Shown: positions 12,914 through 13,299 of the stretch, piece by piece
How the letters are laid out: every line of letters begins with the position of its first letter
Numbering within the stretch: the stretch's first letter is position 1
Assembly (NCBI GenBank): GCA_025774615.1
Contig: JALGVQ010000071.1
Location: 1 to 13,299, forward strand
From: a bacterium
Lineage (GTDB): Bacteria > Blakebacterota > Blakebacteria > Blakebacterales > Blakebacteraceae
Length of the DNA stretch: 13,299 nucleotides
Reading direction: 5' to 3'
Translations under genes and position numbers: made by a program
The notes under the pieces: generated by a model
The model's input: the letters and a program-made list of their open reading frames with translations, nothing else
What the model was told of the DNA's origin: nothing
The model's database searches: none

Positions 12914-13299
12914 ATGACGCATCGATTCACGAGAAGATCGTTCCTTGAGACAGCAGCGCTCGGAACAGCCGCCTGTGGTCTCGCGCCATTTCCGATCGTG
13001 CAGGGGCAACCGGCACTGGCGATTGCGACCTACCGGAGTCCGGAGGAGAGTGATGAGGCGATCAGAGAAGAAGCTATCCGCCTGACGGTTGAATCGATCA
13101 AGGCTCTCGGGGGAATGGATCGGTTCGTCGACAACGGCGACGTGGTCTTCATCAAACCGAATATCGGGTGGGACAAGATGCCCGCGCAGGCTGCCTGCAC
13201 CAATCCCGACGTCGTGGCGACCCTGGTGCGCCTCTGCTAGGAGGCGGGAGCGAAGAAGGTACGGGTCTCTGATTTACCCTGTAACGATCAGCGGCGCAC
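12914..13299 (+). pseudogene. DUF362 family Tat-signal protein with an in-frame TAG; cut by window edge
   Basis: The N-terminal part of a DUF362 protein. It begins at ATG 12914, with GGAGG 5 nt upstream, and carries a Tat signal (TRRSFLETAALGTAA, residues 6-20). The family block VVFIKPNIGWDK is near residues 80-95 (VDNGDVVFIKPNIG), followed by TNPDVVATLVRLC. At 13238-13240 the frame meets TAG (codon 109). The same frame then continues with EAGAKKVRVSDLPCNDQRR to the window edge, which is the expected continuation of DUF362 proteins. A Leu codon (TTG) at this place would restore a normal gene. It may therefore be a nonsense pseudogene, a sequence error, or a read-through site. DUF362 function is poorly known; some members carry ferredoxin-like clusters. 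It is divergent from the permease. The open frame reaches back to 12764, but that part is not conserved. Confidence 0.85.

Follow-up and report, generated by a model that had tools for sequence, protein, structure and literature searches.

The in-frame TAG that interrupts a DUF362 gene at the right-hand end of this DNA is very probably a nonsense codon that arose by accident; the gene is otherwise ordinary, and no recoding is involved. The window (the whole stretch of DNA analysed, 13,299 nucleotides) is one entire contig, C70, of a 3.3 Mb genome, G000, which comprises 324 contigs and has a completeness estimate of 82%. It ought not to be listed as a case of recoding, and it has little import beyond bookkeeping.

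In the sequence as given, codon 109 of the frame that opens with the ATG at 12914 is TAG. The encoded protein carries a Tat signal (a match to TAT_signal_seq, TIGR01409), and its read-through translation matches PF04015 (DUF362) across the stop, over residues 78–124, with 37.3 bits against a gathering score of 24; this match takes in profile positions 1–46 of 200, as the gene is cut at 13299. Intact copies are found in three relatives, G001 (same genus), G002, and G003, with 76%, 66%, and 64% identity, respectively, the first of these over residues 2–128 (tblastn). The PF04015 match and the 76% tblastn identity confirm an earlier note on this DNA, which had described an in-frame TAG within a DUF362 gene and family sequence continuing beyond it. 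The contig end limits inspection beyond the TAG to 19 codons. Base differences from the same-genus copy within them lie mainly at third codon positions (2, 3, and 10 at the first, second, and third positions), and the aligned sequences indicate that the continuity of the frame past the TAG is not a matter of chance. A frameshift is ruled out, as the earlier note had held for a simple one: a single frame runs on both sides of the TAG, and the alignment to the relatives is gapless.

The counterpart of codon 109 encodes phenylalanine in all three close relatives (TTC in G001, TTT in G002, and TTC in G003), and the TAG is absent from these orthologues; it is thus not conserved. More distant family members possess tyrosine, lysine, threonine, or leucine here, so that the site is variable. 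The one-base change from TTG (Leu) that had been proposed as the origin of the stop is not what the relatives show, since two base changes separate TAG from their Phe codons. Because of this two-base distance, one error or mutation would suffice only if the lineage had passed through an intermediate such as Tyr or Leu; an origin from TTG is possible only if Leu came first, and a Tyr intermediate would serve as well.

In other respects, the gene resembles its Tat-exported DUF362 (PF04015) subgroup: it has the Tat signal and the conserved stretch KPNIGWD...TNPDVVATLVRLC...SD..CNDQRR, and it follows fabG and an APC-type transporter gene in the same order as in the same-genus genome. It differs in the in-frame TAG at codon 109 and in being cut by the contig end. 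A chimeric contig was considered and rejected, given that this gene order is shared and the contig is thus no obvious chimera. On the same-genus contig L041 (2917–5725), genes for a 4Fe-4S membrane protein and a Tat-type ferredoxin protein lie downstream of the intact DUF362 gene; this pair, judged by eye, resembles NapH/NapG. These neighbours suggest that members of this DUF362 subgroup have a redox role after export.

Table 1. Position of the interrupted gene in the window, and of other in-gene stops and likely selenocysteine (Sec) TGA codons elsewhere in the genome.
Feature	Location	Strand	Remarks
In-frame TAG, codon 109	Window 13238-13240	+	Phe (TTC/TTT) in three close relatives
Tat-signal DUF362 gene, 5' part, cut by contig end	Window 12914..13299	+	TIGR01409; PF04015; intact orthologues in G001-G003
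Family sequence after the TAG, 19 codons, same frame	Window 13241..13297	+	15/19 residues identical to same-genus copy
Contig end, 59 bases beyond the TAG	Window 13299	.	Window is the whole contig, G000:C70:1-13299
Class-V aminotransferase, TAG	L101 (G000:C9) 2644-2646	minus	Aminotran_5 spans the stop
Metallo-beta-lactamase-fold protein, TAG	L130 (G000:C75) 167-169	minus	Within 170 bases of contig end
TPR protein, TAG	L155 (G000:C87) 2703-2705	minus	G003 aligns through the stop
Aldehyde ferredoxin oxidoreductase, TGA	L165 (G000:C97) 2751-2753	plus	AFOR_C spans the stop; family appears to have Gly
Likely Sec TGAs	L084 (G000:C209) 9701 and 15140	minus	TGA at likely Sec site
Further likely Sec TGAs	L127 (C72) 6202; L120 (C64) 15562; L186 (C155) 821	minus	
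Further likely Sec TGAs	L203 (C244) 16525; L080 (C288) 9061	plus	

Stops with coding flanks in the same frame were sought elsewhere in the genome by a hexamer-based scan of limited sensitivity, which covered 1.23 Mb, or around 37% of the genome. Its 83 candidates were sorted by eye, with Pfam and the relatives as checks on the in-gene calls, and most were judged to be boundaries between neighbouring genes. Besides the DUF362 stop and TGA codons of selenocysteine type, four clear in-gene nonsense codons were found (three TAG, one TGA, and no TAA; Table 1). An excess of TAG among them was considered and rejected: codon usage in this genome predicts a one-step nonsense spectrum of 50%–56% TAG, 24%–27% TGA, and 17%–26% TAA, and the ratio of three TAG to one TGA therefore needs no special cause. 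A useful by-product of the scan is that, over this part of one assembly, sporadic nonsense codons are parted from TGA codons of selenocysteine type.

We infer that the DUF362 stop is either an error or a functionless mutation, and the split made here between these two is part of the same inference. The first, for which the chances are put at about even, is a consensus error: few reads would underlie the last bases of the contig, and the TAG would come from a miscalled base or from a chimeric end. Local errors in uncurated metagenome assemblies are known to propagate into wrong gene sequences (PMC7111523), and the TAG lies very close to the contig end (Table 1). No contig in the bin overlaps this end so as to confirm it, as a query with the final 150 bases showed. 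A second lesion, on C75, also lies less than 170 bases from an end, so that two of the five lesions fall in a zone that makes up 3% of the sample (binomial P of about 0.009, calculated post hoc); this clustering leans mildly towards contig-end errors. Against such an error, the frame is conserved through the 19 codons after the TAG, and the end is thus not scrambled; moreover, the other three lesions lie in the middle of their contigs, so that nearness to an end cannot by itself account for all five. A contig end produced by strain branching, one k-mer past a variant, was also considered and found no support, as the exact overlaps between the ends of sampled contigs measure 114, 114, and 105 bases, not around 60.

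The second, a serious contender held a little short of even, is a real and recent nonsense mutation or strain allele, that is, a young pseudogene in the population. On C9, C87, and C97, comparable lone stops interrupt genes that are otherwise open and lie away from contig ends, and the mark of protein-level selection is still present around the TAG, as would be the case with a young lesion. Under this reading, however, closeness to the contig end would be a coincidence, and the remainder of the gene, in which a second lesion could have shown, is out of view: a search with the same-genus protein did not find it on the other contigs of the bin, and two other DUF362 matches there, examined as the possible missing part, are paralogues instead. 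If real, the TAG would stop translation at codon 109 via RF1, and the product would be a 108-residue stub lacking most of the DUF362 domain, equivalent to a null allele.

Nonsense mutation or base error was also the ordinary reading offered by the earlier note, and it is upheld here. In-frame stops in pseudogenes are known to mimic reassignment (PMC8629427), and the present case resembles those described from pseudogenes and uncurated assemblies (PMC8629427 and PMC7111523) in that an isolated stop lies within a conserved domain and no suppressor tRNA was found.

That TAG is read as an amino acid, pyrrolysine (Pyl) or a standard one, here and in a few other genes, through amber suppression or reassignment, is very improbable, even though family sequence runs on past the stop and three further in-gene TAG codons occur in the sampled genome. 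Within the 1.23 Mb of sampled stretches, 614 coding open reading frames (ORFs) end in TAG (125), TGA (405), or TAA (84); TAG, which closes a fifth of them, is neither rare nor absent as a terminator, and within the window both lemA and rsgA end in it. On C178, an RF1-type gene occupies an unbroken frame of 359 codons, and the genome also has RF2. The intact RF1 frame and the 125 TAG terminators bear out the view, taken from lemA and rsgA in the first place, that TAG is not reassigned genome-wide. The TAG codons are, moreover, not in excess over a random spectrum, and the relatives lack the TAG at the DUF362 site. The residues opposite TAG in relatives, across three genes, are Phe (DUF362), Ser (TCG, in G001), and His (in G003), with TCG one change from TAG; these alignments point to no single amino-acid meaning for the codon.

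The search for pylT/pylS and a suppressor tRNA that had been proposed for this case gave no support to amber suppression. No match to PylS (TIGR02367) is present in the 82%-complete genome, and matches to the PylB family score 118 bits at best, far below the cut-off of 348, such that none qualifies. Transfer RNAs were sought with the Rfam tRNA model over the bin followed by ARAGORN, and with ARAGORN on the sampled stretches; no tRNA with a CUA anticodon was among those recovered, but this negative is a weak one, as the recovered set is incomplete and also lacks Lys, Phe, Thr, and Tyr tRNAs. The genome shares with the Deltaproteobacteria that encode both Sec and Pyl (PMC8318568) an in-frame TAG with conserved flanks, together with TGA codons of selenocysteine type. 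It differs from them in that no PylS, qualifying PylB, or CUA tRNA was found, in that the TAG is not conserved, and in that the interrupted gene encodes something other than a methylamine methyltransferase. For a bacterium with RF1 retained and TAG in use as a terminator, true decoding of TAG would be a notable finding, yet the evidence speaks against it. Hardly any credence is likewise given to weak amber suppression in this uncultured lineage, by a low-level suppressor that would allow read-through of DUF362, the class-V aminotransferase, the metallo-beta-lactamase-fold protein, and the TPR protein. Whatever probability error, mutation, and suppression leave over belongs to unforeseen causes.

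Real recoding looks different in this genome: unlike the TAG case, it is seen repeatedly at redox sites, and the machinery for it is present. The selB gene is present in G000 (C262) and in G001. At the coordinates listed together in Table 1, TGA occurs at likely Sec sites in two HdrA-like proteins (CSI*ILGP, twice), in peroxiredoxins (FTFV*ATE, twice), in thioredoxin-like proteins (GAPW*GYC and FHG*HWC), and in a deiodinase-like protein (GSYT*PPYR). The lineage seems rich in selenoproteins. Two other TGA codons were noted: one in an FG-GAP repeat protein (PPD*CMGFAPQF; L202, G000:C243, plus strand, 13914), possibly a less usual selenoprotein site, and one in a multihaem cytochrome (SGEG*GGAAPP; L081, G000:C288, minus strand, 3286), a possible selenoprotein site at which the TGA may instead be a gene boundary.

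Five near-identical sequences resembling tRNA-Val(TAC) are also present, three on G000:C283 (near 3354, 6861, and 13513) and two on G000:C200 (near 930 and 2736). Their scores against the tRNA family are low to moderate (28.6–38.6 bits), and they are perhaps degenerate tRNA copies tied to a mobile or repeated element.
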